Part shown: one piece after another, positions 2,516-56,494 of the stretch
How the letters are laid out: each line of letters opens with the position of its first letter
Numbering within the stretch: position 1 is the first letter of the stretch
DNA from: Protula sp. h YS-2021
Lineage: Eukaryota > Annelida > Polychaeta > Sabellida > Serpulidae
Direction: 5' to 3'
NCBI GenBank assembly: GCA_949752745.1
Contig: OX457027.1
Coordinates: 87,255,720 to 87,319,719, forward strand
DNA: 64,000 nt
Notes under the pieces: model-generated
Told to the model about the DNA's origin: nothing
The model's database searches: none
Seen by the model: the letters and a program-made list of their open reading frames with translations, nothing else
Program-made: the position numbers and the translations under genes

Positions 2516-2877
2516 CTTTTCGGAAACTCCCGGTAAGTCAGAGGATGGAGTTTACAAGGACTCCACAAATAAGGTGTATTTGTTGCACTGACAACTTTTC
2601 GTATCAGTCTGTCTATTAGTTGTCTTTGAGCGTTCAATGTACTTGTTCATAATGGGCAGTTCCCACTTAACTAGATGTAAGCGGTCCATTTTGAACAACT
2701 TTTTATGGAAAGGGCAGTTCGCGATGAGTTAAAAAATTTCATTGACTTAAATGATTTCATTGAATGCATTTCTTTTATTTCTGTCTTATCGCTACAATGC
2801 CTTGTAGGCAGTGTGTCAACCAGTCTGTGCACATTCGATGTACAATGTACAGTTTCCACCACCAGTTCTGGTCTCCC

Positions 2878-5589: not shown

Positions 5590-5940
5590 TTGGATTCACT
5601 AAAATCAACAATACGACATAAATTCAATTGGAGACGACGCTACGATTCACGTAATGTAACATGGCTCATGTGGTTAAAGATATTGATGTCAAAAAATCTT
5701 AAAAGATCCTACCATCCATTTGCTAAGTATGCTATTGACAAGCTATGTAAGTCATGGTTCTTGCCAAGTATGACGCTTGATACAGTATTGGTGCCAATAA
5801 TTATAGTTAAAACAGGCCCCATAATTTCCAAGGATAATTTCCGCTGGATAGCGCTAGACAGTATTTTAGCAAGTTATTGGACGGTATCCTATTTTACGCA
5901 TAAGGCAGATCATTTTCAGATCAATAAGAAGAGCCACTGA
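5590..5940 (+). pseudogene. LINE reverse transcriptase scrap
   Basis: An open frame of 116 codons includes LVPIIIVKTGPIISKDNFRW followed by IALDSILAS. This matches the block that opens the reverse transcriptase domain of many LINEs: a proline-lysine stretch, then NYRPIAL and S-I-L-S/A. The rest of the domain is missing downstream and no endonuclease is visible upstream, so it is a short relic. The family within LINEs cannot be decided. Confidence 0.5.
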
Positions 5941-5949
5941 AAGTACTTT

Positions 5950-24100: not shown

Positions 24101-27100
24101 AGAGCGCACTGCAAGTACAGGAAATCTTAATCATGCCCCGTCCCGTTTCACCCCAGGATTTCACGGTATTATGCAACCTTAACGATGATGAATCCGTGAG
24201 CTCTAAACATTTTGGTACCAAAAAAGCTATCAGGAATGTCGGTAGGAGGAATTTACTTAGAATTGATGCAGTGTTCTTGTAATCAAACAGAGTAAGAGAA
24301 CTGTAACAGATTTTCGACGATAAAAACGGGTTCCGGACAGAACCCCCCGGGACCAAACCCCCCGGGACCGAACCCCCCCGACCAAACCCCCCGGGACCGA
24401 ACCCCCCGCGCGCATAACCCCCCCATGCCAAAACCCCCCGATATGGAGAGGACCAAACCCCCCCCCCCCGCTTTAGAGGAGCTCCAAGAGGAACTGTCCG
24501 AGAAACATCTTGGTTTTTTTTGTTTTTTTTCAGAGGAATAGCTCACAATATTCAGTTTTAAACCAACAGTGACTGTTGACATTAGTCAGTTGTAGTCATC
24601 GTAGTAAAACAGATTTTGCAAAATGTACAAATGAACTACATCTCAAGTTATAAAATCATGATTCAATAAACGTGTGTTTAAATTTGACATATTATATGCT
24701 TTTTGAGAGGGGGGGTTTGGTCCGATCGGGGGGTTTTGGCACGGGGGGTTATGCGCGCGGGGGGTTCGGTCCCGGGGGGTTTGGTCGGGGGGATTCGGTC
24801 CCGGGGGGTTTGGTCCCGGGGGGTTCTGTCCTAGACCCGATAAAAACAGTGTACTTTCCAGTCAGCTATTTTAGATTTTTCTACCTTTCGAAGTAAAGCT
24901 AGGAAAGATACACAGAATGCGCAGAATCTGTTGTTATACATACGAGCACGGCTTGCTGCCACACGGTATTGATTGTTCTTACGTCACAGAGCCATGCCAC
25001 GCAAACTTCAACAGTTACTTCCCGCAGACAGGATGCTGCCCAAGTCTGCTGCTGCCTATATCGCTTATTATCGCCCATGTGCGGAATAATGTTATCATAC
25101 AAAATAAAAAAAAACATCTAAGGCCTGTATCCTTTTATCCTCTCATTCTTCCTGCACTGAATGAGTTGTGACGAGTTGTGCGGAAACAATTTGAGGAGAA
25201 AACAACAGCAAGATAATGAAACCTTTATGATGTTAATTGCACCAGGATGTTGTTACTTTATAAGTGCGCTTAAACGCTACGCGGTTCTGTAATTGTTATT
25301 GTTATAGCTGTAATTTGGGGCATTAGCGCTGAGTTATCGATCTGCTGATCCGGATGATATTACTGTGTCCAACGCTTAGATCTGGCCAGTTTTATAGTGA
25401 TAATTCATTATTTTGATTGTATTTTAAGGAAGCGAAGCAGAAGAAGAATACAAACCCGTTTCTAAGCAACGGATAACGAAGTGGATTAAGGTATGTGTGC
25501 GCGACAGTTGACAGGGCGCGGTAACAAAAGCCCTAGAGATGTGGGAGGATTTCCGAGAATAACGCCCAACCACTACCCCCCCCCCCTTCCCCCTCCCCAA
25601 ACACAATCAGGTGGGCGAAAAAAGAAGGAACTTTAATTCAGTAATGTACACATTAAAAAGAAATCTGTTGTATCTCACACATGGTGCCTCGGTGAGAAAA
25701 CGCAAACGTTTCAGAAGTTTTAACAAATTTTAATGCAACAAAATGTTGTTTCAACAAATCGTGATTCAGAAAAAAAAGTCTATAAATTTATAACTTCGTA
25801 GAAAAATATACCGCGTCGCTTCAGCATTTGGAACGGTATTGGAAGGTTTTCTTTATCAGGCTGCTAAGCGAAACAGCGTGAAGAAGAAGGCGGCTCGGTT
25901 CTACCAGACTGTCACCCATCCTCTCACGCGTTTTGACAGCCTGCCTCCTAAATCAGGTGCACTCTCATCTACTCATTAATCAATTTGACCTTACAATGTG
26001 TGTGCTGGTTGAGGTGATGCGTGTACATTCTGGCTGAGAGGTTGTCTGTGTTTATATATATCTGCTACGAACCTGTGGCTGTTGAGCTTTGGGTAAGCTT
26101 TGATATGCGTGTTAGAAGTACGGTAGTGATAAACACATTAGCCGGTGGCGGGGTGCTGTAAACGTCTGTCGGGGTACTCATAAATGCAAATTACATCACG
26201 CTTCTTCCAACAATAAAGATGCTTTAGCGTGAAGAGTGTGTTTTCCGGTGCATGTTGTACGTGAAGAGTGAGGGCAAATTTCAGCGTGGAGAGTGCTTTC
26301 TGTTGCAGTGTTATACGTTAGCAGTGAGGACAGATTTCAGTGCGGGGAGTGCGGCTATTTGGGTCAGACCGCAAACGTCATCAAGTCGCACCAATATTGT
26401 TACCACTCGGCTGCCATGCCCACATGTGACGTATGCCATATTTTATTAGTTGAGTCAGGTAGAATGACTGCGGGGCGGGGGGGGGGGGGTGAAAAGCTTC
26501 AAATAGGACCCCAGTCGTGGTATTGAAATTTTACAATCGCCACACAAAGCCAAAAAAAAGCAGATTTATTGTTCACTGTTTATTTTTAGATTTAAGTCCA
26601 AAAAACAAAAAAAAATGGTGTGTGTGAATGCTTTTAAACAATGCACCTGGTATGTAAATTTTATTTTTGAAAATATTATCCTCACGTCGGTCATAACTTA
26701 CCGTTTTTTTACTCCGTGAAATTTATTCAAGTTTCTTGAATTGGAATTTATTTCATTTAACGCAGATGAATGCGGGAACGTTTCATGTTAAGGTGTAATA
26801 CTGGCCAAGCCAGTTGACTTAGCCTTAACGTTTTTTTTGAGTCTAAAGGAAGTAATTTGCATGTGGAAAGCGCAGTGGGAAAGCCCTGTTGCGTCACGCC
26901 TTTTGTTTTGTTCAGTGACGTTATGACGTCATAAGTTGCGTTGCAGATCTGCTTCAAGCCGGTGCGCATCAAGTGTATGATGCTGAAACACAGAGCTGGC
27001 CACTTTGGCGAGGATGGCAAGCTTCTGCCAAGCTCCATCATCCTGCACAAGGTAAGAACCCACCCCCCCCCCCCCCCATCCTCCACCTTCCCCCCCACCG

Positions 27101-30100
27101 ACCCGTGACTCACCCTGCTACTGCCAAGCTCCATTATCCTGCACAAGGTAACAACCTCCTCGTCCCCTCCCCCCCCCCCCCACTACCCACCGACCACACG
27201 GTGAATCACCTCTCCTCATCGACAAAAAGCACAGAGCCGCTCACTCTTGCGGGGATGGCAAACTTCTGCCAAGCTCCATCATCCTGCACAAGGTAAGAAC
27301 CCACCCCCCCCCCCCCCCCACCCTCCCCGACCGACCCGTCAATCACCCGTCCCCATCGACAGGAACCACTAGCTGACCACTTTGGCGAGGATGGCAAGCT
27401 TCTGCCAAGCTCCATCATCCTGCACAAGGTAAGAACCCCCCCCCCCCCCCCCATCCTCCATCTTCCCCCACCTACTGCAAAGGTCCATTATCCTATTTCC
27501 TACACAAAGGAAGTAGCGCCCCTTCCCCTCTCCCCGACCGCCCCGCGGATCACCCCCTTCTCATGCCCATAAAAAGGCACAGAGCTGCCACTTTGTGAGG
27601 ATGCCAAGCTACTGCAGACTTCCATTATCCTACACAAGGTAAGTACGGGGTTGGGACAAGTCATCCCACGACCGAACTCATCCCACGACCGACTCAACCC
27701 ACTTTGGTCAAGTCAACCCACCTTGTCGCGGTCAACTCAACCCACCCTACATACCGACTCAACCCACCCTGAAAGTCAACTCAACCCACCCCAAAACCAA
27801 CTCAACCCACCTGTATTAAACCGTTCTAATATGAAAAAATAAAACGGAAATGAATATAAATCTTCATTTGAAATAGGTTTAGTTTAAATACGAGATATAA
27901 ATGAAAGAAATTACGCAAACATTTGATCTTCTCTGTGATCCATTGTCAATTTAAAATCACAGGAAACATCTGGAGTGGAGAGGGGTCTTTCAACGTGTGT
28001 AATTAGGAATAGTACGCTGAGTAGGGACTTAGTCTGATGTCTGGGTAGGAGGATTAGCATTACGGGTTGATTCTCAAATCGCAATTTGGATTAAGGCGTG
28101 TTCGTGTGCAATTAGGAATAACACGCGGAGTAGGGATTTAGTCTGGTGTCGGGGTAGGGGGATTAGCATTACGGGTTGATTCCAAATCGCAATTGGGATT
28201 AAGGCGTGTTCTCTGGTATTTTAAATAGCGAATAAACGCAAGTTTTCACAGTGGGGTGAGTTAATTGCAATTTGCTCCGTAATATACTCTGGTGTAAAGT
28301 TTAACGGATGTTTCTCATTGGTTATTCATGATTAGTTTTGCAATGTTTAAACTATAAAAAGCTCCCGAAAGGCGCTCGAAACCCAATTACAATTTATGCG
28401 GCTTGAGAGAATGGTCTGAAATTTTGTTTTTACCTGATCCATCGAGTGAACTGGTTTGCAGTCGTTATTGTGTGGATACATTTTATTAATCAAACCTTTG
28501 AAATGTCGGATAAATGCACTAAATGTAAACAGGACTTGAGGCCTCGACAGCAGATTGTAAAATGTGTGGAGTGTTCTGGTTTGCAACATCGGATATGTGG
28601 ATCGGGTATCTCACAAAGAGAGTACCAACGCGCAAAAAAGGGTGAATTTGCACAATTTTGTTAGACAAAAAAGTAAAAAGTTTTTAAGTAAGGAAAGAAG
28701 AAAAGACGCTAAAATTAGATTTTTTCTGGTGTGCATTTTACACACCATAAACTGAAAAACACTGAGGGCTGTTGCTAAAGTTGGCTTGTTTATGAAGCGA
28801 AGTTTTTGCAGGGCATTATTTTAAATTTGTCTACAAATGAAAGGCCGTTTCTTTAGTCATTTTTTTTTTGTTTTTATAGAAAGGCGTGAACTGGTCTTCG
28901 TCTGTATCGCATGCAGACAGTTTTCCATGCAGCATGATTGTTCAATGCCAGTCTTGCTAGTGCAAAATTCCTCAGTTAGTGTCCAGAATTCCTCTGATCT
29001 CACCATGCCTTTGTTGATTGCCGGTATATTTATTTTTTATACATATTTATATTTATTTGAGATTTAATAACTTTGTAAAGTTGAAAATAAGAAGTGAATA
29101 TATGAGAAAATAATTGAAGCAAGTCAAAAATTGAAATTAGTTATGAAAGAAGTGGAAAAATGGCAAAGAAAATAAATGAAGTTTGTTATTATAATGCTTT
29201 CCTTTAAACTTAAAATAAGAAAAATGTACAATTATTATTATTATTATTATCATTATTATTATTATTAATATGTGCTTAAATGCACTTCAGATTCCGTCCA
29301 AACTGCTCAAGATGAACAGAATCGCCGCGACGAGGAACTCCGAGCTCTGGAAGTTGCTGTCCAACCGTACGGTCTCGAGATCCTGATGAATGTACCTTAT
29401 GACGGCGATTGTTTCTTTGCGTCTGTTGCTGCACTGGTTCCAGACAGCCTATCAGCTTTTCAGTTGCGCACGGATCTTGTGCGTTTCTTCATTACTAAAG
29501 TGAGCTCTCTTTCTTTCATGTAGTCGTGAAAATTAATAATTATCTTGAAACGCAATTATAAATATATATCATATTATTGTAAGAAGATTACCGGGTAAAT
29601 TAATTGTTTAGATTTTAAAGAAAATAAATATTTTTAGTAACAGATATTAAATAACATTTGGCGGATTCAACATAATCGACAACGCTTCTCAAAGAGGGAA
29701 AAGAAAGCTCGTAGACAGCTTAGGCTATTCCTATGTTTTGAAGGTACGATAAATTAATTGAACGTAAAAAACTATATTTCTGCAATTGTAATCCTTGTCA
29801 ATTTCTGCAATTGTAATCCTTATTAATAATATTAATAATAAAAATAATATAAATTCCAAAATTACAGAGGTCCGGGCCTGTGGTTACATACTGGCGATGC
29901 TCTGTGAACAACAGAAAAGTCCGCTGTAAGGCAGCAGTAACGCAACGTGGAAATTCGTTCCAACCCAACGCCGCTGAACATTGCCACCCATGTGACCCTG
30001 CTGTAAAGTTCAAGACAGAAGTGACTGCAAAGGTAATAATATTGCGTTCTTTGCTGAGCAGATGATAGCGCATAATTTATCCCTTGTGTTTAGTATTTAA

Positions 30101-38698: not shown

Positions 38699-38775
<77 letters not shown>

Positions 38776-47700: not shown

Positions 47701-50700
47701 GTGAATATCGCTTGTGCTATAAGTCGATCGGGGAATTAAAAGAAAAAAGAAGAAAAATTCAAAATACATTTCCTCCTACAGATTTTATCAGATGCTATTT
47801 ATTTTTGGTTTGAGCCGTCTGTAGGGGGTAACGCCTACGGCTTGTGCTTTTTGAGTGACTTGGAAAATTTCTGGATTTTTTTCGGAATTTTTTTAGAAAA
47901 CTAAACCGAATTTCGCTACACGTAGCGAAATGGCACCCACTTGCAATGGTGCAATCTATCTGGTCAAAGACATTTTTCAGTGTTTCGACATAATTATCAG
48001 CTTCCGAATTATTATCTTGAACGAGGACATCGAAGTAAATATAATGTTATCTCTTTTGGGTACAAATAATCAAATTCAGTTTTCTAACCGTTTTCGAGAT
48101 AATGGTCAACTTCCGGTTTTGGTCCTTGACCATGACGGAGGAGGTCAAGGTCACCGAGGTACCACTTATGTAACATTGTTTAGGCCGAAAGGGTCGAAAA
48201 TGAGCTCAAAATGGCTCTGTCTCCCGTTTTGAAAAAAAAGTTTGCCTATCGTACCCTCAAGGTCAAGATTTAAATCTCAGCGTTACCCCCTACGAAATAC
48301 GTTTTATATATTCAAACTGGGATTTAAACACATATTATAGCCACTTTTCGTGATAAATAGACGTTTTGAAAAATATTTTTTCCTCAATTTGACCTTGACC
48401 TTTGATGTCAAGATGAAAAATATTTGCGGTTTTACCGAGACCTGATGACTGTCTATAAGTGTGCCCAAATATAACAGTCCTCTGAGGTTTGCAAGTGGGA
48501 ATTATGCAAAACAGTAGTAAAAGATAAGTTGTGAAGTAGCATATTCAGAATGCGTTGACACACACTCACAAAGCATAAAACACTATTGATATTACAATGA
48601 CGCCTGCTGGGAACCAAACAAGGGCACTGGCAAATATAAACAACCACGTAAGTATTTTTAACCCAGCCGACCTTGTCGGACTGGGCTAGTCGTATCACTA
48701 TAGGGGGCTTCAATGTATGTGCGTATGTTAAGCTTTTTCTTTAAAATGCTACTCCTCCTACAGTTTTGCTCCAATCGTTTTGGTAATTATATGTCTCCCC
48801 CTAAGGGAGACATATATAGCATTTGGTGTGTCCGTCCGTCTGTCCGTCCTGCCGTCCGTCTGTCAGTAAACCTTTTTCGTCCGGATGATATCTCGAAAAC
48901 TATTCATTGGAGCTTCACCAAACTTCACAGGAAGAAAGTATATATAGTGTAGATGTGCAGCGGAGGTTCAGTTTGCCCCATATCAGCCCGTCCATTGCAC
49001 TCTATAAACTTTTTCTTGTTCAGGCGCTATCTCAAAAACTATTCATCGGATCTTCTCCAAGCCTTACATGAAGAAAGTATATATAGTGTAGATGCGCAAG
49101 GACCCGTCCCAAAGACTGTTTACTACTAAGATATGACACTCAGCCATTTTCGCGTATCCAGACAGCAGTGGCGCCGCCTGGTATTAGAGTTGCAAATTAA
49201 GCTGTCAAAAGCATTGAGGTCACCTGGAAAGTGCATGTGTTTTTTTCACTTTTCGTTATTTTTTCGGCCTTAAAGTTAATAAAAACATTTTGTCGCCTGG
49301 ATAATAATTAGTAATGAATAAGAGTATGGCTACTACAAGAAGAGGACGACCTTGTGCAGCAATTGGATGCGATAATGACTACTACAACTGCAATCTTTCC
49401 TTCTTTCGATTTCCAACGGACAAAGAAAGGTAATATTTTTTTTTAAATATGTTAAAATTTTTAAAGAAAAGTAATCGAATCAATAATTCCGTAGCAGATG
49501 TCTTTTTCTCTTTCCTTAAGTTAGGTGTTTGAAGGAGTTTTTATCTCTTTTTAGGAGCATGAAATGGGTTCAAAACACCAGACGAGCGGATCTGATGAAA
49601 GTTGATTCGGTGATTCTTCACAAGAACCACAAAATCTGTGCCAAGCATTTTGAGGATAACCAGTTTATGAACAAACATAGAAAGAGATTAATATGGAATG
49701 CTGTTCCAACACTATTTCAAGTTCCAAACCCCCCTCCAAAAATTACAATATCGCGCCCCGCGCCAAAAATTCGAAGTAAGAAGAAGGAATTAAAAACTCC
49801 AAAAGCATCTTTTTCTGTGGGTCCATCCTCACCACAAGAAAAACGTGATGAAGAAAAGAGTAGTTTGGTTTCAACGCCTTCACCATCAACTACACCTGAT
49901 ACGCCCAGAAAACAAAAATTAAAAAAAGAGGTGCGACGACTTCGATCAAAACTTTGGAGAGCCAAAAAACCAAAACAGACCAATTCTGCAGCGGCCAAAA
50001 TTAATTCTTGCATGAATGAACTTAGCCAATATTTGCCAACACAAACAATGGATTTTATCCGGACACAAGTAAAAATGTCCGGTCGGTCAAAATCTGGGAA
50101 GAGGTGGCCTATGAAGGATAAAATGCTCGCATTATCTATTTTTTACCATAGCAGAAAGGCGTACAGTTTGCTTGGGCGAATTTTTAATTTGCCATCAAAG
50201 AGAACCCTACAAAGAACTCTGCAGAACTCAAATATTTCTCCCGGTCTAAATGACAAAATTCTGGACGGTCTGAAAGAAAAGTTAAGAAATTTGCCTTCAG
50301 AAGAAAAAGAGTGTGTGTTGGTCTTTGATGAAATGTCATTAAAACAGGGGTTGTCATATAATAGTCATACAGACAGCATAGAGGGTTTTGAAGATTTTGG
50401 TGATTTAGGAAAATCAAAATATGTAGCAAATCATGTTCTGTTGTACATGGTTCGGGGTCTACACTCCAAGTGGAAACAACCCATAGGTTATTTTTTGTCG
50501 TCTGGTCCGATTGAAAATAGAATGTTGGACATTTTGACAAAAAATTGTGTTCGAAAATTGAAGGCAATTGATGTGAATATCCGCGTTGTGGTATGTGACC
50601 AGGGGTCTAATAACAGGTCTTTCCTTGAAAATATGAATAAAGTGTCGGTCAAAACGCCATATTTTTACGTTGATACTCAAAAGGTTTACGTTATATACGA

Positions 50701-53700
50701 CCCTCCCCATCTTTTAAAGAATATCAGAAATAACCTCATGAAACACGGGTTCATGTGGAAGGAAAAAGAAATAAAATGGCATTATATTGTGCAATTTTAC
50801 GAATTTGATCAAGAGAATAGCATTAAAATGGCACCAAAATTGAAAGAAGCGCACATTACTTTGCCCCCTTTTAAGGCAATGCGTGTTAACCTGGCCACTC
50901 AAATTCTTAGTCATTCGGTTGCCGCTGGTATTTCGACCCTAGTTCGTTTAAAAACAATGCCTGAACAAGCTAGAGACACTGCCCAATTTGTTGAAAACTT
51001 TGACCAATTATTCAATTCATTCAACAGTTGCGCAATAAAAAGTAGCCAAAAAATGAGACATGCAGTGAGTGCCAATAGTGGTCATTTAGAGTTTTTTCAA
51101 AACATGCTCGCGTTTTTAAATGACATTAAATTAGTGTCCGGAAAAAATGTTCCCTGTATTGAAGGTTGGAAACTGTCAATCATAAGTTTACTAGAATTAT
51201 GGAAAGACCTGAGTGAAAATTCCAATTACAGGTACTTGTTAACAAACCGGTTAAATCAAGATTGCGCCGAAAAATTTTTTTCGGTGATTAGGGGAAGAGG
51301 GGGTTTTCGCGATAATCCCGATCCCCAGGAATTTAGGGCAGCCTTTAGACAAGTAGCGGTTGAACAACTTTTGATGCCAAGCTCATTTTCTAATTGTCAG
51401 GCAGATTTTGACAAGATATTACTAGATTTGTCACATGTTTCGCAATCAAATAATGTCACCCAACGCATAAGAGAAAATGACAATTCTGATTTGGAAATTC
51501 AGGGTATTTCTGAAACTACTAGTATTTTGAGTGTTATGAGACAACCCGACAGTTCAGTGAAGAATGTGGCTTTTTATATTGCTGGTTATTTGCTTCGCAA
51601 AATTAAACTTAGCTGTAATATATGTATTATGGAGTTTGTTTCCGAATCAGTTCCAGATTCAGATTCGTACATTTTTTTGAGAGAAAAAAATTACAGCAAA
51701 GAAGGTGCATTATTTATACCATCCAAAAAATTTGGGTTATTTGTGAAAGATCTGGAATCTGTTTTCGTCACCGTTTTTCCAATGGTGCAGCACATGACAA
51801 AACTTCACACAAGACTTGTTTGCAATGCCAGAGATGTGGAAAAAAATGTAATTGAATGTACAAATACCGCTTGTGTTAAAAAGATAAAAAGCGCGGTAAG
51901 ATTGTTTATGAAGATGCGAATTCATTTCGCTCTGAAAATGGCAAATTTTTCTTCAATTAGATCCTCGAGTGGTAAAAGAAACAGAAAAGTTTTAAAGCTC
52001 ATTCATGTGTAAATGTGAGAGCAGTATTTACCTTTTTCTATTGTGACTTTGACGGGAGGGGGGTCATCGTTATCTGATCAGATTTGTTAAATAAAAGGTG
52101 GCTGTGCTAATAAAATGGCAATTTTTTATCCTTCTTACTTCTATTGTTCAGCTCCTGTTCAAATAAATTACTTTAAATCCCCTAAAATCTATTGAAATAT
52201 TGAGCTTAACACCAATACTGTAAAGTGTTTTGACAGTTGTTTTTCTCAGTTTACAACTCTTCCAACAGGGGCGCTGCAATCGCCTGGATACTATAGGCTG
52301 TATAGGGAGTGTCATATCTTAGTAGTATATAGTCTTTGCCCGTCCGTCGCTCCATACTCTGCACCTTGTATATTGTTTTTGTCCGGGCGGTATATCACAA
52401 GAGTAACTGGACCACAGTGATGTAACCGCTATTGGCTGAGGGCTCTGCATCTCCGATGCGTATGTTCTGTGTACTTTTTTTGTACTTTTTGTGTACTTTT
52501 TTGTACTTTTTTTTACAGAACGTACTTTTTTGTACTTTTTTTAACGCTTTCAGTGTACTTTTCTTGTACTTTTTTTTAACTTTTTTACTGAACGTACTTT
52601 TTTTGTACTTTTTTTTACGCTTTCAGTGTACTTTTTTTGTCCAACTCCCCGTGGCAACCCTGCAATAGGCACGTCTGCAAGGCCATCAGGTACATCTCAT
52701 CCCACCCACCCCCCACCCACCCTCGCCTGCCGTCTCTTCCCACACCAGCACGGCCTCAATAGGCACGTCTGCAAGGCCATCAGGAACACCTCACCCCTTT
52801 TCCCTCACTTACTGCCTGCATTCCCGCTGCAACAAAACCGCAAAAGGCGCGTCTGTAACATGAAATGGCCGCAATGGCTGTTTACAAAGTAGGATGGTGT
52901 GGTGCGTCTGGAAAGGAAAGTTTGCCATTCACTTGAACGAAGCCTTATACTTATATTTGATTGGTTCAGATACTCGAGCACAGACACAGAGTCGGGTCAC
53001 GTGTTCGAGGTGAAGGAGGAATGTGCTGAATTAGTTGTCCGCGACGAGCCGCCGGAGACGACGCAGCGCATTGACGACCAGTTTGTCCTCACCGAAGAGG
53101 TACGCTCTGCTCGTGCCGCGGTACTCAGAAAGTACTTAATGAATTAGTGTCAGAGGTCCCTTTACTCGTGCCACGGTACTCAGAAAGTAATTTTAATGAA
53201 TTAGTGTCGGAGGTCCCTAAACTCGTGCCACGGTACTCAAAAAGTACTTAGTGATTTAGTGTCAGATGTCCCTATACTCGGTCTACGGTACTCAGAAAGT
53301 ACTTAGTTAATTAGTGTCAGAGGTGCCTTACTCGTGCCACGGTACTCAAAAAGTACTTGTGAATTATTGTCAGAGGTCCCTATACTCGTGCCACGGTACT
53401 CAAAAAGTACTTGTGAATTAGTGTCGGAGGTCCCTATACTCGTGCCACGGTACTCAGAAAGTAATAAATGAATTAATGTCGGAGGTCCCTATACTCGTGC
53501 CACGGTACTCAAAAAGTACTTGTGAATTAGTGTCAGAGGTCCCTATACTCGTGCCACGGTACTCAAAAAGTACTTAGCGAATTAGTGTCAGAGGTGCCTT
53601 ACTCGTGCCACGGTACTCAAAAAGTACTTGTGAATTAGTGTCAGAGGTACCTATACTCGTGCCACGGTACTCAACGACGCGTTTGATTGGCTTGCAGGTA

Positions 53701-54903
53701 ACATCAAGTGATGTACAAAAGATCGCTCTGCACGAGAACCTGGTATGTGGTGATGACGGCACATACCTGCGGCAAAATGCCTCGTCATCGTTTGTGGGCA
53801 CGCAGAATGTCAAGGTAAGCCTAGCCTGAGGTGGAGGGGATATGAGAGGGGGGGGGGACTCAACAGAATGTCCAGTTAAGTCCTTGAGGCGAAGATAGGG
53901 GCTTGGGATGGAAGGGGATTCCTGTAATAAAGCACCGACACCTAACGCTTGCTTTTTGTTCAAGTCATCGTTTTTGGGAACACAAAATGTTCAGGTCAAC
54001 CTTAGAGGGGGTGCGGGGAGGTGGTGGAGGGGGGCGCGTCATCGTTTTTGGAACGCAGATTTTCTGGGTAAGCCCATCCTACCGTTTGTTTTTTGTTCCT
54101 TCATTTTCATTTCTTTCATTTTATAAACAGATATGGATCGTAAATTGTGCCACAGTCGTGTGAAACTTCGAATCGCTAGTAACGTTCATTATTTAATATA
54201 ATATTGTTTCAAAAAGAGCTGCTTGACTGGTGATTTTTTCTCGACTTTAGGAAGGCGGAGATAGAGAATTAAAGTATGATTTTATTGTAAAACGCTCATT
54301 TTTACTTCGCTCTATACTCGACAGGTGGAGTATTCAAAAGGGGAGAAGTCGGAAGTGACTCATGAAGACCTCATCGAACCAGGCGAAATTTCAGGTATTT
54401 TACTGCATTCCCTTTTTTTTCTGTACATAAAAAAGAAGAGAAAAAATGCAATGCCAAAAGTTATACAGGATTAAGCGACGATATATTTTGTGTTGTCAGA
54501 CTCAAATGATAAGGAACTGGATTAAGCACCTCTATCTATAAATTCGTTTTCTTTTTACTCCACAGAGATACTAGAGGACCATGGGGGTGGAGAATATTTT
54601 ATTCTCAAGTCTGGGATCGATGTCGATCCTGCGGTATTCCACACATTGTCTCAGCTTGAAGGACCGGCCGAAATACGCCTTGGTGACCAAAGCTACGTGG
54701 CTGTTCCTTCGATCGAACCTGCTGTTCCATCAAATAATGTTGATGTCTCGCAAACCGGCTTTTATACTGAAGAGCTCAAGATAGATGAAAACAGAGAGCC
54801 TGCTGTTGCTGTGGCGTCGGAAACCAAAGCAGAAGCGTCGCCTGGTGGCCAAGTATTAGCTGACGGCCACGTGGCCCTGATCGAACATTTCGATACCAGC
54901 TAG
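21024..54903 (+). CDS. Multi-C2H2 zinc-finger protein, 21 coding exons, ~1185 aa
   Basis: Inferred join: 21024-21194, 22493-22597, 22989-23811, 25429-25490, 26329-26430, 26947-27051, 32566-32710, 36973-37127, 37665-37838, 38075-38191, 38563-38661, 38962-39115, 39838-40038, 41711-41840, 42082-42191, 42926-43039, 44378-44513, 52970-53099, 53698-53814, 54325-54394, 54566-54903. All junctions are GT..AG and all phases agree, total 3558 bases. Fifteen C2H2 fingers fit C-x2/4-C-x12/13-H-x3/4-H; five are split by introns and regain perfect spacing only when spliced as given. A sixteenth is degenerate. Residues 1-92 are an unrecognised N-terminal region, 93-367 a charged low-complexity region, about 390-960 the fingers, and 968-1185 an acidic tail. 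Expected role: nuclear DNA-binding regulator. I do not recognise an orthologue. The first two exons are the least certain. Confidence 0.85.
21757..22470. mobile_element. Helitron-like element, AGCCCTCAG family copy 1
   Basis: Begins AGCCCTCAGCCAATATTGGCT (a hairpin), then a GTCCGTCCGTC tract. Four or five units of about 130 bp follow, each with AAAACTATTCATCGGATCTT, ACAGGAAGAAAGTATATATA and GTGTAGATGTGCAACGGGGG. Ends TATTGGCTGAGGGCT, the exact reverse complement of its start, then the hairpin GCATCTCCGATGC. It lies in intron 1 of the zinc-finger gene. A second copy with the same two ends frames 46711-52459. Confidence 0.75.
22493..22597 (+). CDS. Zinc-finger gene exon 2
   Basis: Residues 58-92. 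The 105-base exon lies between TTAAACAG and AAG|GTAATA and reads AFIKEKGAELLSEGG, then VNIVNGDKQAVDEVSTFIQK. It is in phase 0 with both neighbours. It starts only 22 bases after the end of the Helitron-like element. Small and without a known domain, so supported by splice sites and phase only. Confidence 0.6.
22860..22925. repeat. Poly-A rich simple sequence
   Basis: AAAAACACC/AAAAACAAA-type simple sequence in intron 2, just before the acceptor of exon 3. Confidence 0.6.
22989..23811 (+). CDS. Zinc-finger gene exon 3, long charged exon with 21-bp coding repeats
   Basis: Residues 93-367. Between TTATACAG and TCCAG|GTAATT it stays open for 823 bases and ends in phase 1. It is rich in basic clusters (SPRKRRG, PRRTRGKK, LNKRRK) that could be nuclear localisation signals, then acidic and serine-rich. 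A seven-residue repeat SSPRADE, coded by a 21-base unit (TCTTCGCCTCGGGCAGACGAG), is present four to five times at about residues 287-311. GC content is far higher than in flanking introns. Opposite-strand frames here are shadows of this repeat. Confidence 0.8.
23560..23650 (+). repeat. 21-bp coding minisatellite in exon 3
   Basis: Four to five copies of TCTTCGCCTCGGGCAGACGAG with few changes. Because the unit is 21 bases, copy-number change alters the protein by seven residues without frameshift. Confidence 0.85.
23812..24318. other. Intron 3, left part
   Basis: Nothing recognisable. The open frame of exon 3 runs on to a stop at 23933 but is intronic because the phase and splice signal at 23811 join exon 4. 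Confidence 0.5.
24328..24838. mobile_element. Non-autonomous element, TIRs built from 15-bp GGGACCGAACCCCCC repeats
   Basis: A 511 bp element in intron 3. The left arm (24328-24470) starts GGGTTCCGGACAGAACCCCCC-like and holds about nine copies of (G)GGACCRAACCCCCC. The right arm (24708-24838) is its inverse and ends CTGTCCTAGACCC. The nine bases GATAAAAAC flank both sides (24319-24327 and 24839-24847) and are a perfect target duplication. The centre has no coding sequence. By target size and arm design it groups with the Mutator-like elements at 27647 and 60675. Confidence 0.85.
24848..25428. other. Intron 3, right part
   Basis: No coding similarity. The frame at 24917-25171 is open but has no family match and no splice context. 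Confidence 0.4.
25429..25490 (+). CDS. Zinc-finger gene exon 4
   Basis: Residues 367-387. A 62-base exon between ATTTTAAG and AAG|GTATGT, read as GSEAEEEYKPVSKQRITKW then IK. It enters in phase 1 and leaves in phase 0, exactly as needed between exons 3 and 5. Too short to be seen as an open frame; support is the phase match and the strong donor. Confidence 0.7.
26249..26300 (+). repeat. Degenerate partial copy of exon 5 start
   Basis: TGTTGTACGTGAAGAGTGAGG followed by CAAATTTCAGCGTGGAGAGTGC matches, with changes, the sequence directly downstream that leads into exon 5 (TGTTATACGTTAGCAGTGAGG and so on). It is a tandem duplication of the intron-exon 5 border. Confidence 0.7.
26329..26430 (+). 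CDS. Zinc-finger gene exon 5, finger 1 and start of finger 2
   Basis: Residues 388-421. Finger 1 is C-G-E-C-x12-H-x4-H. The exon ends MPTCD at GAC|GTATGC in phase 0. Joined to exon 6 it gives C-D-I-C-F-x11-H-x3-H, a perfect finger 2, which is why this donor was preferred to one 50 bases downstream. The acceptor is AGTGAG|GACAGA, chosen because it is in phase. Confidence 0.75.
26947..27051 (+). CDS. Zinc-finger gene exon 6, end of finger 2
   Basis: Residues 422-456, between GTTGCAG and AAG|GTAAGA. It supplies the second cysteine, the hydrophobic core and both histidines of finger 2 (ICFKPVRIKCMMLKHRAGH), then HFGEDGKLLPSSIILHK. A TGACGTCA word lies just upstream. Its last 35-50 bases and donor are repeated several times downstream. 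Confidence 0.85.
27052..27638 (+). repeat. Tandem copies of the exon 6 end with its splice donor
   Basis: Five diverged copies of the exon 6 3' end (GCCAAGCTCCATCATCCTGC, ACAAG) each followed by a GTAAG-type donor and a poly-C tract end near 27149, 27293, 27429, 27510 and 27638. Units are 80-145 bp. The fourth has lost the donor GT (AAAGGAAGT). The longest copies extend back to GCCACTTTGGCGAGGATGGC. The last unit is the one into which the Mutator-like element inserted. Confidence 0.9.
27639..27646. other. Target site duplication GTAAGTAC (left)
   Basis: Eight bases GTAAGTAC, repeated at 32386-32393 on the other side of the element. The duplicated bases are the splice donor of a repeated exon 6 end. 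Confidence 0.95.
27650..27815 (+). repeat. Left TIR array of element A
   Basis: About eight words of the type GGTCAA(G/C)TCAACCCACC, spaced about 20-25 bases apart. Inverted copies form the right end at 32265-32385. Confidence 0.9.
27998..28215. repeat. 112-bp direct repeat, two copies, in element A
   Basis: The units at about 27998-28108 and 28110-28215 share AATTAGGAATA, GAGTAGGGA, TTAGTCTG, GGATTAGCATTACGGGTTGA and GGATTAAGGCGTGTTC. They lie just inside the left TIR and could be part of the element promoter or transposase binding region. Confidence 0.8.
28503..29023 (+). pseudogene. PHD-finger module of element A
   Basis: Across an intron the protein reads C-T-K-C-x12-C-V-E-C-x4-H-R-I-C, then after splicing ELVFVCIACRQ, giving the C4-H-C3 pattern of a PHD-type finger. 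Donor AAG|G-GTGAAT and acceptor TTTTTATAG fit in phase 1. PHD-like fingers at the start of FLYWCH-containing transposon proteins could bind chromatin; that is inference. Confidence 0.65.
29291..29499 (+). pseudogene. OTU protease-like module of element A
   Basis: Contains VPYDGDCFFASVAALVPDS, matching the OTU cysteine protease active-site word (D-G-D-C-L/F-F-x-S-V) with the catalytic aspartate and cysteine present. It is followed by QLRTDLVRFF. The histidine-bearing C-terminal half of an OTU domain is not visible in the following sequence, so the domain is partial or its next exon is decayed. Confidence 0.7.
29868..30298 (+). pseudogene. FLYWCH zinc finger and linker of element A
   Basis: VVTYWRCSVNNRKVRCKAAV followed by AEHCHPCDP gives the W-x-C, C and H-x-H/C ligands of a FLYWCH finger. 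The next exon is a helical linker, SIVEEAMLSQELVSSLPNPE, leading into the transposase. Both exons are in phase 0. Confidence 0.75.
32386..32393. other. Target site duplication GTAAGTAC (right)
   Basis: Exact repeat of 27639-27646, followed by the poly-C tract that characterises the exon 6 end repeats. This confirms the insertion point. Confidence 0.95.
32566..32710 (+). CDS. Zinc-finger gene exon 7, acidic linker
   Basis: Residues 457-505, between GTGTTAG and GAAA|GTAAGT. It reads MKLKELEMDENLEGELLQQV and continues to DPIKEENAE. It enters in phase 0 and leaves in phase 1. IKEE fits a sumoylation consensus (hydrophobic-K-x-E), which is common in such regulators; this is inference. No finger in this exon. 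Confidence 0.75.
32720..36195 (+). mobile_element. LINE retrotransposon (CR1/L2-like), apparently intact ORF2
   Basis: Located in intron 7. The long ORF at 32956-36141 is followed by a short 3' tail ending in TGTAATGTAATGTAATGTAA, a pentanucleotide repeat typical of LINE clades that do not use poly-A. The left end is not resolved and no ORF1 is seen, so it may be 5' truncated or a single-ORF type. A Helitron-like element begins about 35 bases after its tail. Confidence 0.8.
32956..36141 (+). CDS. LINE endonuclease-reverse transcriptase, 1061 aa
   Basis: An uninterrupted frame. Residues about 110-330 are an apurinic-like endonuclease with LGLINARSVKCK, ILVITETWLS, GGGIAVVF, IIITGDFNIHVD (catalytic D-F-N) and VSDHFLITC. 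Residues about 540-830 are the reverse transcriptase with NYRPVSNLSYVSKLIEKA, FLCLLDLSAAFDTVD, GAPQGSIYGPEAYEQYT and the catalytic FYADDSQLL. The C-terminal part has SAARIITYTH, LHWLRIKERCEFKI and APTVWNSLPLEIR, found in CR1/L2/Rex-type LINEs. The role is target-primed reverse transcription. All key catalytic motifs are present, so it could be active or very young. Confidence 0.9.
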   Translation: MTLNSLSPEHFSQHQSINRINCHIMNILSLFILAMCLGQISISHRRGSRGGKIRKIKKIITERQVPKINRTFRANLNNLISVHYENDQCAPESYSNTSVSDLCKHPTGSCLGLINARSVKCKSELISTIIDHHKLDILVITETWLSQDDDFCEKEITPDGYSCLRKDRHMGRGGGIAVVFNTSIKPKRLELETFSSFEHDILRTDSPTGMLRLIAIYRPPSSPQQQFLEEFTSLLETHTLSSDRIIITGDFNIHVDNSQDTFAVKFLRTLAMFSLKQHVTDSTHTGGHILDLVIAHEHDPLIIGKPVVRDLVSDHFLITCGLDKEASEFKSTCIKYRKFKDIDIEQLKKDIRESVLCNPEDMSTESLVDTYNATLTNLIDKHAPLLERKITVRPRHPWYGNELRSLKRQCSTSERKWRKSRLHKDYVELSNTQKRYFGLIKDAKKNYYHNLVSQNQHDQGKLYRILNKLLCRNNSCCLPDHTSKLDLANTFGNFFKSKIEKIRENFTDSSQCFELDNVEPPQTLSSFAELSSDKVHSIISASRPKSCGLDPIPTWLVKECSLELAPVITKIINTSLRSTFPNNLKQAIVTPIIKKPTLKKIPKNYRPVSNLSYVSKLIEKAASLQIRDHISTHALSEPMQSAYKKGHSTETALVRIFDEILMAMDKRRVVFLCLLDLSAAFDTVDYSILIKRLKLTFGIDEQALHWLESYFQNRQQRVKIDDVLSDIIELTCGAPQGSIYGPEAYEQYTRPVGRAISPFDIFYSFYADDSQLLDSADPKSINDQKAKLENISNAISSVSSWMFQNKLKLNETKTEFMVLGAQKYVDLCQIDNLVLGNEIIPKSSSAKNLGVTMDQTLSLSEHIDNICRSCYNSLRIIFRIRKYLTEDATKSLVHSLVMSKLDYCNALYFGINTKELNKLQRVMNSAARIITYTHPHKHITPALVSLHWLRIKERCEFKIATLTFKALHGMAPSYLCNLITPYTPTRTLRSENLFLLRQPKYNLKRCGYRAFTVSAPTVWNSLPLEIRCTENFQRFKKSLKTHLFKKSYGEHFDVQRGDTSV
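36228..36880. mobile_element. Helitron-like element, GGGGGAC family copy 2
   Basis: Starts ATTAGTTCCCCGCCGCCGCGG with a GTCTGTCCGTC tract. The core has two units sharing TTTTGTACGCG, ATTTCTCAGT and GTGCGA(C/A)CTGGG(G/A)TTATTTTTG. It ends GGGGGACTGTGATCAGTTTC, with hairpin ATCAGTTTCACTGAT, as in the copies at 19050 and 47370. Located in intron 7 next to the LINE tail. Confidence 0.7.
36973..37127 (+). CDS. Zinc-finger gene exon 8, finger 3
   Basis: Residues 505-556, between TATGTAG and CAG|GTGAGG. Finger: C-S-I-C-F-x11-H-x4-H (VQCSICFATLSQNKFLKVHM). It enters in phase 1, making serine with the A left by exon 7, and ends in phase 0 with HYTKQ. Its last 45-50 bases are amplified downstream. Confidence 0.85.
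37128..37440 (+). repeat. 77-bp array of the exon 8 end, donor and a TGACGTCA site
   Basis: Four further copies of GCATGGCGCTGACAAGAAAC...ACCAAACAG|GTGAGG follow exon 8 with donors at 37204, 37281, 37358 and 37428. Spacing is 77, 77, 77 and 70 bases. The second lost its donor G (CAGTTGAG). Each of the first four units carries the palindrome TGACGTCA a few bases after the donor (37135, 37212, 37289, 37366). Confidence 0.9.
37665..37838 (+). CDS. Zinc-finger gene exon 9, finger 4 and start of finger 5
   Basis: Residues 557-614, between GCTTTCAG and GAG|GTCTGT. Finger 4 is C-P-K-C-D-F-x10-H-x3-H. Finger 5 starts C-D-V-T-G-C (four residues between cysteines, an accepted variant) and is completed by exon 10. 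GC-rich codons contrast with the AT-rich intron. Phase 0 at both ends. Confidence 0.85.
38075..38191 (+). CDS. Zinc-finger gene exon 10, end of finger 5 and finger 6
   Basis: Residues 615-653, between CATTCAG and CGC|GTCAGT. IRRHKRNAH supplies the histidines of finger 5. HSEKAYKC is a linker close to the classical TGEKPY/F type. Finger 6 is C-D-Q-C-E-x11-H-x4-H. Phase 0 at both ends. Confidence 0.85.
38379..38408. repeat. (ATT)n microsatellite in intron 10
   Basis: About ten ATT units. Similar tracts lie in element A at 29233-29275, 30306-30395 and 31262-31352. Confidence 0.9.
38563..38661 (+). CDS. Zinc-finger gene exon 11, finger 7
   Basis: Residues 654-686, between GTTTCAG and AGT|GTCAGT. 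Finger: C-E-V-C-G-K-x10-H-x3-H (ICEVCGKQLTSLGTYRKHMQ). The donor GTCAGTGC is the same as that of exon 10, which is in phase 0; the alternative ATGA|GTGTCA one base pair earlier would break the frame. Confidence 0.85.
38699..38775. repeat. (AGT)n microsatellite in intron 11
   Basis: About 25 AGT units starting 38 bases after the exon 11 donor. The polyvaline frame through it is an artefact. Confidence 0.95.
38962..39115 (+). CDS. Zinc-finger gene exon 12, finger 8
   Basis: Residues 687-738, between GCTTGTAG and AACG|GTACGA. Finger: C-P-K-C-G-R-V-F-x8-H-x4-H. Then an acidic segment (DADDSVLKEEKLVSEGLNV) and LHN. Enters in phase 0 and leaves in phase 1. Confidence 0.85.
39116..39515 (+). repeat. 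23-24 bp minisatellite starting at the exon 12 donor
   Basis: About 16 copies of GGTACGGCGCTTGTCGTCACTGC, with changes. The first begins at the exon 12 donor itself (G|GTACGACGC), so most units contain a CG|GTACGG donor-like word. Predicted proteins through this array are artefacts. Confidence 0.9.
39838..40038 (+). CDS. Zinc-finger gene exon 13, fingers 9, 10 and start of 11
   Basis: Residues 738-805, between TTTTTTCAG and TGTG|GTACCG. Finger 9 is C-K-H-C-x13-H-x4-H (one residue longer than usual). Finger 10 is C-H-H-C-D-Q-Q-F-x8-H-x3-H. Finger 11 opens C-P-D-C-G and continues in exon 14. Phase 1 at both ends. Confidence 0.85.
40255..41710 (+). repeat. 54-bp minisatellite (27 copies) containing the exon 14 acceptor
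   Basis: Unit: TTACACGCATGGTCGTCCTG, CTGTCAGGGTTACGATACAT, GTATCATAGCCACA. The last unit ends CCTGCTGTCAG, which is the acceptor of exon 14, so nearly every unit carries a copy of that acceptor. The unit is 18 codons, has no stop and is in frame with exon 14, so a continuous 526-codon frame (40264-41844) arises. Copies differ at a few positions (CATGG/CAGGG, ATTA/ATGA/GTTA), with higher-order blocks. Confidence 0.95.
41711..41840 (+). CDS. Zinc-finger gene exon 14, end of finger 11 and start of 12
   Basis: Residues 805-848, between GCTGTCAG and CACTT|GTAAGC. KQFKNKTYVSHHRKRMH completes finger 11 (C-P-D-C-x12-H-x4-H). Finger 12 is C-P-V-C-H-K-Y-F-x8-H and its last histidine is in exon 15. Enters in phase 1, leaves in phase 2. 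Confidence 0.85.
42082..42191 (+). CDS. Zinc-finger gene exon 15, end of finger 12 and finger 13
   Basis: Residues 848-885, between GCTCGTAG and ACGG|GTAAGT. FELH supplies the last histidine of finger 12. Finger 13 is C-G-S-C-E-R-R-F-x8-H-x3-H and ends YHMLEHT. Enters in phase 2, leaves in phase 1. The last 20-odd bases with the donor are amplified downstream. Confidence 0.85.
42192..42830 (+). repeat. 45-bp minisatellite (14 copies) of the exon 15 end and donor
   Basis: Unit: GGTAAGTGGCGGGGTAACGA, GCAGTACCACATGCTTGAGC, ACACG. Each unit ends with the last 20-odd bases of exon 15 and restarts with G|GTAAGT or G|GTAAAT, a strong donor. The unit is 15 codons and has no stop in the exon 15 frame; the resulting frame runs from 42176 to 42856 (GKWRGNEQYHMLEHT repeated). 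Using any downstream donor would keep phase 1. Confidence 0.95.
42926..43039 (+). CDS. Zinc-finger gene exon 16, finger 14 and start of 15
   Basis: Residues 885-923, between TGTTGCAG and TGCG|GTGAGA. Finger 14 is C-T-L-C-K-K-K-F-x8-H-x3-H; the preceding linker HTGLKAF is classical in type. Finger 15 opens C-P-H-C and is completed in exon 17. Phase 1 at both ends. Confidence 0.85.
43060..44335 (+). repeat. 23-bp pyrimidine-rich minisatellite in intron 16
   Basis: About 55 copies of GGCTGTTACTCCCCTCCACCCCA. The first lies about 25 bases after the exon 16 donor. Each unit carries CTCCCCTCCACCCCAG|GCTG, a polypyrimidine tract with an AG, so the array mimics a row of 3' splice sites. The proline-rich frames of 272-283 codons through it are artefacts. 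Confidence 0.9.
44378..44513 (+). CDS. Zinc-finger gene exon 17, end of finger 15 and degenerate finger 16
   Basis: Residues 923-968, between GATTGACAG and ATCAG|GTACAC. DKSFKQAKYLDIHLMSH completes finger 15. Then C-R-A-C-C-R-L-F-x8-H-V-C; the last histidine is missing or replaced, so finger 16 is degenerate. Enters in phase 1, leaves in phase 2. Its last 55 bases and donor are amplified downstream. Confidence 0.85.
44514..46420 (+). repeat. About 90-bp array of exon 17 end and donor (about 21 copies)
   Basis: Unit: GCCTGCCGTCTCTTCCCACA, CCAGCACGGCCTCAATAGGC, ACGTCTGCAAGGCCATCAG, then GTACACCTCACCC and a C-rich tract. The first two donors are 90 bases apart; later spacing varies with the C tract, so the frame is not kept. 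Nearly all units keep CAG|GTACACC or CAG|GTAAACC; one near 45053 has lost it (CAGGGACAC). The array is cut at 46420 by an insertion and resumes at 52664. Confidence 0.95.
46824..47912. mobile_element. Helitron-like element with ~140-bp core units
   Basis: Begins TTTAGCCCGGCTTACGTTAC with hairpin CTTACGTTACCCGTAAG. Units contain AAAATGCAT(T/C)T(C/G)CTCCTAC, TTTTGATCCGATATCATTTA, TTTTTGGTGTGAG and TACGGCTTGTGCTTTTTGA, in about four copies. A GGGGGAC-family element at 46953-47392 interrupts the first unit. Near the right end is a perfect hairpin, ATTTCGCTACACGTAGCGAAAT. Confidence 0.55.
46953..47392. mobile_element. Helitron-like element, GGGGGAC family copy 3
   Basis: Starts AGTCCCCACCGGGGGACTAT and GTCTGTCCGTCTG, has two core units with AACACACTCAAGCCTACATT and GGTCGGTATTGTAAATG, and ends GGCGGGGGACATCAGTTTCA with hairpin ATCAGTTTCACTGAT. 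Flanks rejoin to the neighbouring family's unit, showing insertion between T residues. Confidence 0.65.
47913..48660. other. Intronic repeat-like DNA with AAGGTCAAGGTCA words
   Basis: Contains several CCTTGACC/AAGGTCAAGGTCA words. No coding sequence is visible. Confidence 0.4.
48660..49109. mobile_element. Helitron-like fragments left of the P-like element
   Basis: Two starts are visible: AACCCAGCCGACCTTGTCGG with its hairpin at 48660, and ATGTCTCCCCCTAAGGGAGA at 48792, followed by a GTCCGTC tract and two units like those of the AGCCCTCAG family (ACTATTCAT(C/T)GGA, GGAAGAAAGTATATATAGTG). The sequence is cut at 49109 by the P-like element and continues at 52339. Confidence 0.55.
49110..52338 (+). 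mobile_element. P-like (THAP) DNA transposon, 3229 bp, complete
   Basis: The ends are inverted repeats of about 32 bp: CAAAGACTGTTTACTACTAA at the left continues GATATGACACTC, and the right end is its inverse with two mismatches. CCCGTCC lies on both sides (49103-49109 and 52339-52345), a 7 bp duplication, or 8 with one mismatch; P elements make 8. One two-exon transposase gene fills it. The flanks rejoin into an AGCCCTCAG-family sequence (GCAAGGACC-CGTCCGTCGC), as in the copy at 22345. Confidence 0.9.
49314..52012 (+). CDS. P-element/THAP9-type transposase, about 857 aa, two exons
   Basis: Exons 49314-49429 and 49555-52012, donor AAAG|GTAATA and acceptor TTTTTAG, phase 2. The N-terminus is a THAP zinc domain: C-A-A-I-G-C, then FRFPTDKER, KWVQNTRR, ICAKHF (C-x2-H) and AVPTLF. 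A basic helix (KQKLKKEVRRLRSKLWRAKK) probably dimerises. The P-type RNase H-like core shows VFDEMSLKQG, VVVCDQGSNNRSF, IYDPPHLLKNIRNNL and, at the C-terminus, NRLNQDCAEKFFSVIR-GRGG. The expected D, D and E are present and there is no stop or frameshift, so it could be active. It is in the same orientation as the host gene. Confidence 0.9.
52664..52790 (+). repeat. Remainder of the exon 17 array
   Basis: Two more units of the exon 17 end repeat, resuming at the base where the array was cut at 46420. One donor is intact (CAG|GTACATC), the last is altered (CAGGAACACC). Confidence 0.9.
52970..53099 (+). CDS. Zinc-finger gene exon 18
   Basis: Residues 968-1011, between TTGGTTCAG and GAAGAG|GTACGC. 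It reads RYSSTDTESGHVFEVKEE, then ELVVRDEPPE and DDQFVLTEE. Enters in phase 2, leaves in phase 0. Acidic, no finger. Confidence 0.8.
53100..53690 (+). repeat. About 53-bp minisatellite at the exon 18 donor (11 copies)
   Basis: Unit: AGAGGTCCCTATACTCGTGC, CACGGTACTCAAAAAGTACT, TGTGAATTAGTGTC. The first unit begins at the donor (AAGAG|GTACGCTCTGCTCGTGCC). Units have AGAG|GTCCC or GGAG|GTCCC at that position, so donor quality drops after the first. Length varies by several bases. Confidence 0.9.
53698..53814 (+). CDS. Zinc-finger gene exon 19
   Basis: Residues 1012-1050, between GCTTGCAG and AAG|GTAAGC. It reads VTSSDVQKIALHENLVCGDD and ends SSFVGTQNVK. Phase 0 at both ends. Two worn copies of its 3' end follow in the intron. 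Confidence 0.8.
53959..54075 (+). repeat. Two degenerate copies of exon 19 end and donor
   Basis: TCATCGTTTTTGGGAACACA-AAATGTTCAG|GTCAAC at 53966-54001 and TCATCGTTTTTGGAACGCAG-ATTTTCTGG|GTAAGC at 54039-54074 resemble the exon 19 end TCATCGTTTGTGGGCACGCA. Donor-like words are kept. Confidence 0.8.
54325..54394 (+). CDS. Zinc-finger gene exon 20
   Basis: Residues 1051-1074, between CTCGACAG and TCAG|GTATTT. Reads VEYSKGEKSEVTHEDLIEPG, then EIS. Enters in phase 0, leaves in phase 1. Confidence 0.8.
54566..54903 (+). CDS. Zinc-finger gene exon 21 (stop codon)
   Basis: Residues 1074-1185 and TAG, after acceptor ACTCCACAG in phase 1. It reads EILEDHGGGEYFILKSGIDV, then FHTLSQLEGPAEIRLGDQSY and ends ALIEHFDTS. 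The tail is acidic with no domain I recognise; such tails can act as activation domains. No AATAAA signal is visible close downstream. Confidence 0.8.
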
Positions 54904-55875: not shown

Positions 55876-56494
55876 GTGATTATCCGTCGGCGGACATATA
55901 GTTTTCACTGTCTGTCCGTCTGTCTGTGCACTTTCTGTCTCACGCACTTTGAGCATTTATTAGTGGCTGGATTCGTCTGAAATTTTACCCAGGGGTGGTT
56001 CCAACCCTTGTGCAGTGCAGTGACCAGGAATTTTTTAAATAGCGGAGAAATTGACAAAATGGAAAATTTTTTAACATTTGCAAAGTGTGTTTTTGGAGTG
56101 AGCATATACTGGAGTCAGTCTCATGCGCCTAGAGCATTTATAAGTGGATGAATTCGTTTCAAATTTTACCCAGGGGTGGTTCCAACCCTTGTGCAGTGCA
56201 GTGACCAGGAATTTTTTAAATAGCGGAGAAATTGACAAAATGGAAAATTTTTTAACATTTGCAAAGTGTGTTTTTGGAGTGAGCATATACTGGAGTCAGT
56301 CTCATGCGCCTAGAGCATTTATAAGTGGATGAATTCGTTTCAAATTTTACCCAGGGGTGGTTCCAACCCTTGTGCAGTGCAGTGACCAGGTATTTTGGTA
56401 GCACGACAGAAATTAACAAACTGGTAAATTGTTAAAAAATTACATTCAAATTTTGCCCAAACCCCGGTGGATTCATGCTTCTCGAGCATCTAGT
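55876..56494. mobile_element. Helitron-like element with ~180-bp core units
   Basis: Starts TTATCCGTCGGCGGACATAT and a GTCTGTCCGTCTGTCTG tract, then two full and one partial copies of a 179-181 bp unit (TTTTACCCAGGGGTGGTTCC, AACCCTTGTGCAGTGCAGTG, ACCAGG). Ends with hairpin ATGCTTCTCGAGCAT and CTAG before TTTT. This is the same plan as the element at 17171-18228. Confidence 0.7.

Follow-up and report, generated by a model that had tools for sequence, protein, structure and literature searches.

The window, meaning the whole 64,000-nucleotide stretch of DNA analysed (C4:87255720-87319719, in an assembly of 863 Mb in 218 contigs), contains a zinc-finger gene on its forward strand. Its 20 coding exons, which we number 2-21 after the initial annotation, amount to 3375 nt in one frame with a stop at the terminus alone.

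22493-54903, + strand: gene for a C2H2 zinc-finger protein, exons 2-21 (coding); the frame stays open after splicing as far as a single stop at its end, and a regular expression finds 14 C2H2 motifs in the product

The coding model begins with exon 2, and an ATG at 21024 is a candidate start for exon 1. Exon 3 carries an in-frame 21-bp coding minisatellite (23520-23647), and two arrays of 181-bp period flank the gene (17267-18088 and 55937-56396).

Nine minisatellite arrays, delimited by TRF and wraparound alignment, lie in the introns outside transposons, and their units range from 23 to about 137 bp by wraparound alignment. Eight of the nine overlap a splice junction by wraparound alignment and seven by TRF alone. 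The junctions copied are the donors of exons 6, 8, 12, 15, 17 and 18 and the acceptors of exons 5 and 14.

26223-26352, + strand: 56-bp repeat, 2.3 copies, with the acceptor of exon 5 (exon start 26341) and 12 coding bases; TRF, wraparound alignment, junction rescoring
26986-27640, + strand: array of about 137 bp across the exon 6 donor (last exon base 27051); TRF, wraparound alignment to 27472, worn copies to about 27640 by eye
37078-37451, + strand: 77-bp array, 4.9 copies, across the exon 8 donor (37127); TRF, wraparound alignment, junction rescoring
39109-39513, + strand: 23-bp array, 17.6 copies, taking in the exon 12 donor (39115) and 7 coding bases; TRF, wraparound alignment, rescoring
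40254-41711, + strand: 54-bp array, 27.0 copies, ending one base beyond the exon 14 acceptor (exon start 41711), 1 coding base; TRF, wraparound alignment, rescoring
42161-42831, + strand: 45-bp array, about 14 units, across the exon 15 donor (42191), in the exon's frame and mostly stop-free; TRF, wraparound alignment, rescoring
43051-44325, + strand: 23-bp array occupying the greater part of intron 16 and beginning 12 bp downstream of the exon 16 donor (43039); TRF, wraparound alignment
44457-46421, + strand: array of about 92 bp, about 21 copies, across the exon 17 donor (44513); TRF, wraparound alignment, rescoring
52663-52800, + strand: remnant of the exon 17 array beyond a transposon insertion; read directly, start set by the element end
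53096-53674, + strand: 55-bp array, 10.5 copies, with 4 coding bases before the exon 18 donor (last exon base 53099); wraparound alignment, TRF start 53110
53773-54075, + strand: worn, incomplete repeats of the sequence around the exon 19 donor (53814); rescoring gives 27 where shuffled sequence gives 16, and by eye further copies lie near 53971 and 54037

In the spliced model, one open frame runs through the exon-proximal (outer) junctions of all arrays. Some array ends were set by hand (the exon 6 array to 27640, the end of the exon 17 array and its remnant), and the exon 15 array is given its TRF start, the alignment running on weakly to 42087. With TRF alone, the exon 18 array would begin 10 bp beyond its donor. 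Since the intron 16 array begins 12 bp past its donor, it abuts the junction rather than spanning it; the acceptor-like look of its units is a judgement by eye. The total of nine leaves out arrays internal to transposons, the coding array of exon 3 and the arm of a MITE in intron 3 (24726-24831, 106 bp); with this arm counted, 8 of 10 arrays overlap a junction. The intron 3 element (24327-24839) has 112-nt inverted arms, 91% complementary, built of 15- and 29-bp tandem units. The unit lengths at exon 14 (54 bp) and exon 15 (45 bp) are divisible by three and both arrays stay open in frame; use of an inner site would thus add 18- or 15-residue repeats and leave the protein unbroken.

Sensitive rescoring of all 38 junctions separates them clearly, with scores of 34 to 96 at the eight array junctions, 27 at the exon 19 donor and 13 to 22 at the other 29, for which shuffled means are 13 to 20. 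The initial annotation, which had described arrays copying exon-intron borders throughout this gene, is thus correct in nearly every detail: the arrays after exons 6, 8, 12, 15, 17 and 18 stand, as do the inclusion of the exon 14 acceptor in an array unit and the copied border of exon 5, and only after exon 19 is the array reduced to worn copies. Its proposal that each array arose separately holds for the most part, with 34 of 36 unit pairs at background and two above z 3 (exons 12 and 14, z 6.0; exons 6 and 15, z 4.4). A shared ancestral unit for all arrays was rejected on the same comparison. The donor GT is retained in 43 of 45 units of four arrays, or 39 of 41 without the four true donors, and whole units are conserved to a similar degree.

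Two of the arrays, those of exons 6 and 17, hold transposons with flank duplications.

27647-32385, + strand: MULE-like element (named by eye from its translation), 8-bp target duplication GTAAGTAC, its insertion point being the donor word in a worn copy from the exon 6 array
46422-52662, no strand assigned: element splitting the exon 17 array, 12-bp terminal inverted repeats, 6-bp flank duplication CAATAG
49110-52338: P-element-like element nested in the 46422-52662 insertion, THAP and TNP-like domains, 7-bp flank duplication CCCGTCC

The 8-bp duplication of the MULE-like element is the donor word itself. Intron 7 contains a LINE (32953-36190) whose open frame of 1062 residues covers endonuclease and reverse transcriptase and whose tail is a TGTAA repeat.

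The arrays resemble the 'mirages' of amphioxus, minisatellites that copy exon-intron borders in Adh3, globins 6 and 9, PGBD5 and other genes (PMC3087553, PMC3902484); a likeness to such amphioxus repeats, suggested in the initial annotation, is borne out by these descriptions. Mirage units are given as about 10-160 bp (PMC3087553), with splice signals in most, not all, copies and the outer site presumed to be used (PMC3087553, PMC3902484). The zinc-finger arrays likewise span exon-intron borders at donors and acceptors alike (8/9), keep splice signals in most copies, as the GT counts of four arrays indicate, and have units whose lengths fall within the mirage range. They differ in reaching 27 copies, in numbering eight in one gene with several more in an unrelated gene, all known here from one assembly, and in a host that is probably not a cephalochordate, the cephalochordate host being where mirages were described rather than what defines them. 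The arrays of the zinc-finger gene are therefore probably mirage-type minisatellites, in what is probably a new lineage. The literature found under the name mirage treats such repeats in lancelets only, which is no proof of their absence elsewhere in print.

Two further systems are partly comparable. Human genes in segmental duplications show internal tandem repeats at exon-intron boundaries (PMC2812944), and so share minisatellite expansion at the borders; there, however, the genes are recent paralogs and the novel introns have transcript support, whereas the zinc-finger case is known from DNA alone. Earthworm metallothionein genes share large minisatellite arrays in the introns of an invertebrate gene (PMC12783039), but these are placed within intron 1 and, in the account given there, are not described as junction-spanning.

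How far junction overlap exceeds expectation depends on what is counted. Arrays occupy 7430 of 14913 bases (50%) of the non-transposon intron sequence, a count for which transposon ends were approximate and later refined. Against this share, 6 of 19 donors and 2 of 19 acceptors lie inside arrays, so that by base coverage, the kind of comparison that the initial annotation had set as its own refutation, this gene has no excess at donors, which lie in arrays less often than intron bases do. The sensitive score agrees: with the excess set at 8 to 16, it places 32-37% of donors and 11% of acceptors in arrays, compared with 56-60% of 1124 positions within introns. Counted per array, overlap is more frequent than expected. 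Without arrays and transposons the array-bearing introns collapse to lengths of 74 to 776, and with units of 23 to 137 bp a duplication landing in such an intron would often take in a border. A uniform-seed null allowing for this expects 4.2 of 9 arrays to overlap a junction against the 8 seen (P 0.0047), and a null based on the median array-free intron (381 bp) expects 2.4 (P 0.0001). When seeds are required to be at least nearly as GC-rich as the unit, 6.4 are expected (P 0.13), although this GC-matched null partly presupposes its answer because exon ends are GC-rich. Inclusion of exon 19 gives 9 of 10, with P of 0.0015 (uniform), 0.00003 (median intron) and 0.047 (GC-matched). The per-array excess is about twofold and its size depends on the null; a modest preference of arrays for exon ends is possible. 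To have called the pattern far from chance, as the initial annotation did, was an overstatement: the excess is present per array (P 0.13 to 0.0001) and absent by base coverage.

Arrays are abundant elsewhere on the chromosome as well as in the gene. In 18 random 10-kb stretches, all from contig C4, 35532 of 180000 bases (20%) are array, against 24% of the gene region (26201-54900, transposons included). The 20 background arrays of at least 300 bp are spread very unevenly, from 0 to 6 per stretch. A Pfam search for host exons in the random stretches matched reverse transcriptases alone, in 2 of the 20 frames scanned (of 430 listed).

Myosin genes provided an independent comparison. The genome has at least 87 myosin-head exon matches (65 of 230 candidates scored), from which 14 stretches with 52 exons were picked for compact spacing before any sequence was seen, so the sampled introns are on the short side. 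One of these stretches, L031, has four junction-copying repeats, two of them at donors (near 1293 and 2529) and two at acceptors (near 3794 and 5949). The donor repeats have units of 110 bp (2.7 copies) and 29 bp (about 10 copies); of the acceptor repeats, one is an array of about three 76-bp copies and the other a worn second copy, and all four lie within 1248-3823 and 5828-5949 of this one stretch. In L032 a 34-bp array of about 27 copies crosses the donor near 3044; in L033 the units of a 41-bp array, about 18 copies, resemble the last coding bases plus donor, with a worn copy at the donor near 574. Arrays of at least 100 bp are absent from 9 of the 14 stretches. The junction-array anatomy is common to unrelated genes of this genome, and the zinc-finger gene, which had been thought exceptional, looks like a striking example of a wider genome habit and no unique case. 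Myosin exons with identical scores in contigs C74 and C11, near 7.27 Mb, perhaps represent an unmerged haplotype.

By position, the myosin junctions show no more overlap than their surroundings. A script placed 46 of 52 donors and 49 of 52 acceptors, some of them wrongly (the L031 donor at 1293 was missed and the acceptor at 5949 scored at 5909), and found 4 of 46 donors and 4 of 49 acceptors (8/95) in arrays, an undercount, compared with 611 of 3840 positions outside exons; duplicated alternative exons account for two of these four donors. In a cruder count the figures are 6 of 36 for donor ends and 4 of 36 for acceptor ends, with 585 of 2417 for non-exon positions. Per array, a lenient reading has 6 of the 14 myosin arrays of at least 100 bp touching a junction, where 2.7 were expected (P 0.022), or 3.8 with GC matching (P 0.09); four of the six do so by TRF, the L033 donor by its worn copy, and the L033 acceptor array stops two bases short of the AG. 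Strict overlap is 4 of 14 (P 0.26), and five counted gives P 0.09. Some of the intron ends used for these 14 arrays were placed manually, and two of the introns run beyond the edge of their stretch. In the zinc-finger gene and the myosins together, 14 of 23 arrays touch a junction where 6.9 would be expected (P 0.0003, or 0.023 with GC matching); on strict overlaps the count is 11 of 23 (P 0.03). The zinc-finger gene has the higher proportion (8/9 against 6/14, Fisher P 0.04), and stands at the high end, as one would expect of a gene chosen because it was striking.

These observations are best explained, with a probability of about 0.68, by mirage-type minisatellites that began as random short tandem duplications, were tolerated in introns, later expanded and were then hit by transposons. 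Short tandem duplications of tens to over a hundred bases would arise widely in the genome, as far as it was sampled. Within genes, the survivors of selection would be those whose surplus copies fall in an intron and leave the coding frame intact, and many of these would take in a splice site because array-free introns are short relative to the units. After duplication of a donor, the exon-proximal copy would keep its place and frame and the surplus would be carried as intron, provided that the first donor is still used; after duplication of an acceptor, the last copy would keep its role in the same way, provided that the last acceptor is still used. The arrays could then expand and homogenise by slippage or unequal exchange, with transposon insertions into them coming later. 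The parts of this account that we infer, on the basis of one other gene family and a background from one chromosome, are that seeding is random but somewhat favours GC-rich exon ends, that the arrays are neutral, and which splice site is used. Against it, the uniform-seed null leaves an excess, both in the zinc-finger gene (P 0.005) and in the pooled sample (P 0.0003).

Junction-spanning arrays have been described for lancelets (PMC3087553, PMC3902484) and for recent human duplicates (PMC2812944). Their presence in several unrelated genes of a probably unrelated invertebrate makes the phenomenon look general, and testable. Up to 27 near-identical splice sites in a row, in natural genes, would allow direct tests of how the spliceosome chooses among equal donors or acceptors, and such arrays allow tests of how introns grow.

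The same excess would be expected if splicing or transcription, through R-loops, paused polymerase or spliceosome-associated breaks, seeded duplications preferentially at splice sites, a kind of mechanism that the initial annotation proposed and that we consider unlikely. Eight of nine arrays against 4.2 expected, the pooled excess even with GC matching, and the predominance of array donors over acceptors, six to two, are all in its direction, as is the count, by a donor matrix, of 2 in 11 units from the gene region that contain donor-like words where 0.8 were expected. The donor bias, however, is not significant (P 0.29), arrays cover a smaller share of donors than of intron bases, and strict overlap in the myosins is 4 of 14 (P 0.26). 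By the same matrix, a strong donor-like word occurs in 0 of 56 background units, mostly non-genic as far as seen, where 2.3 were expected. R-loop seeding in particular is without support, since GC skew varies among the nine arrays between -0.55 and +0.46 with no consistent sign. A splice-linked mechanism is thus weakened and unproven. Its broadest form, in which duplication tied to splicing or transcription operates genome-wide outside cephalochordates and lengthens introns by copying their own exon ends, is similarly doubtful; if it were true, up to half of the intron sequence in some genes would derive from arrays that copy exon ends.

It is quite improbable that the arrays mark introns newly born from duplicated exon segments bearing an AG-GT word (the Rogers model), even though mirages are put forward in the globin paper as an origin of new introns (PMC3087553). 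Comparison of exon end with intron end, and of intron start with next exon start, gives scores of 10 to 17 against shuffled means of 10 to 14, so the duplication signature is absent from the 19 introns tested and this origin was rejected; five of nine array introns also contain at least 150 bp of unrelated non-transposon sequence.

We give similarly little weight to the idea that the copies are functional, for example by offering decoy or alternative sites for splicing or by encoding peptide repeats in frame. GT retention across the four arrays would fit such a role, as would the exon 14 array, which is open in frame with its exon, and the exon 15 array, in which 10 of 11 alternative donors are in-frame and stop-free. 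Elsewhere in-frame, stop-free donors number 0 of 10 (exons 6, 8 and 18), 2 of 19 (exon 12) and 1 of 19 (exon 17), all by the donor matrix. Homogeneity moreover extends over whole units, beyond the GT alone, which means that GT retention needs no selection. Although the copy number of long near-identical arrays cannot be checked from one assembly, it is very improbable that the arrays are wholly or partly assembly artefacts, as their units differ individually, two of them contain transposons, similar arrays occur in other contigs and the assembly comprises 218 contigs for 863 Mb.

The mitochondrial contig, C218, bears on the identity of the host. It is 21,318 bp long, and Pfam recognises ten protein genes on it, every one of them plus-strand and following one another as ND5, ND3, COX2, ND4, COX1, ATP6, ND4L, CYTB, ND1, COX3; the names ND4 and ND5 were assigned by us from a shared domain, and ATP6 is below the cut-off. 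ND6 gives a weak plus-strand match (E 0.19) and was not found in the 8 minus-strand frames scanned, of 20. The amphioxus mitochondrial genome is about 15 kb, with a vertebrate-like order in which COX1-COX2 and ATP6-COX3 are adjacent, and ND6 is the one gene expected on the other strand. The size and gene order of C218 are unlike those of amphioxus, so the host is probably not a cephalochordate; they would suit a bivalve or a brachiopod. Strand was discarded as an argument against amphioxus, because ND6 alone would be expected to differ and here has its weak match on the plus strand. Two long mitochondrial open frames (L025, 863-2638) have no Pfam match and are alike by eye, and the COX1 and cytochrome b frames look extended.
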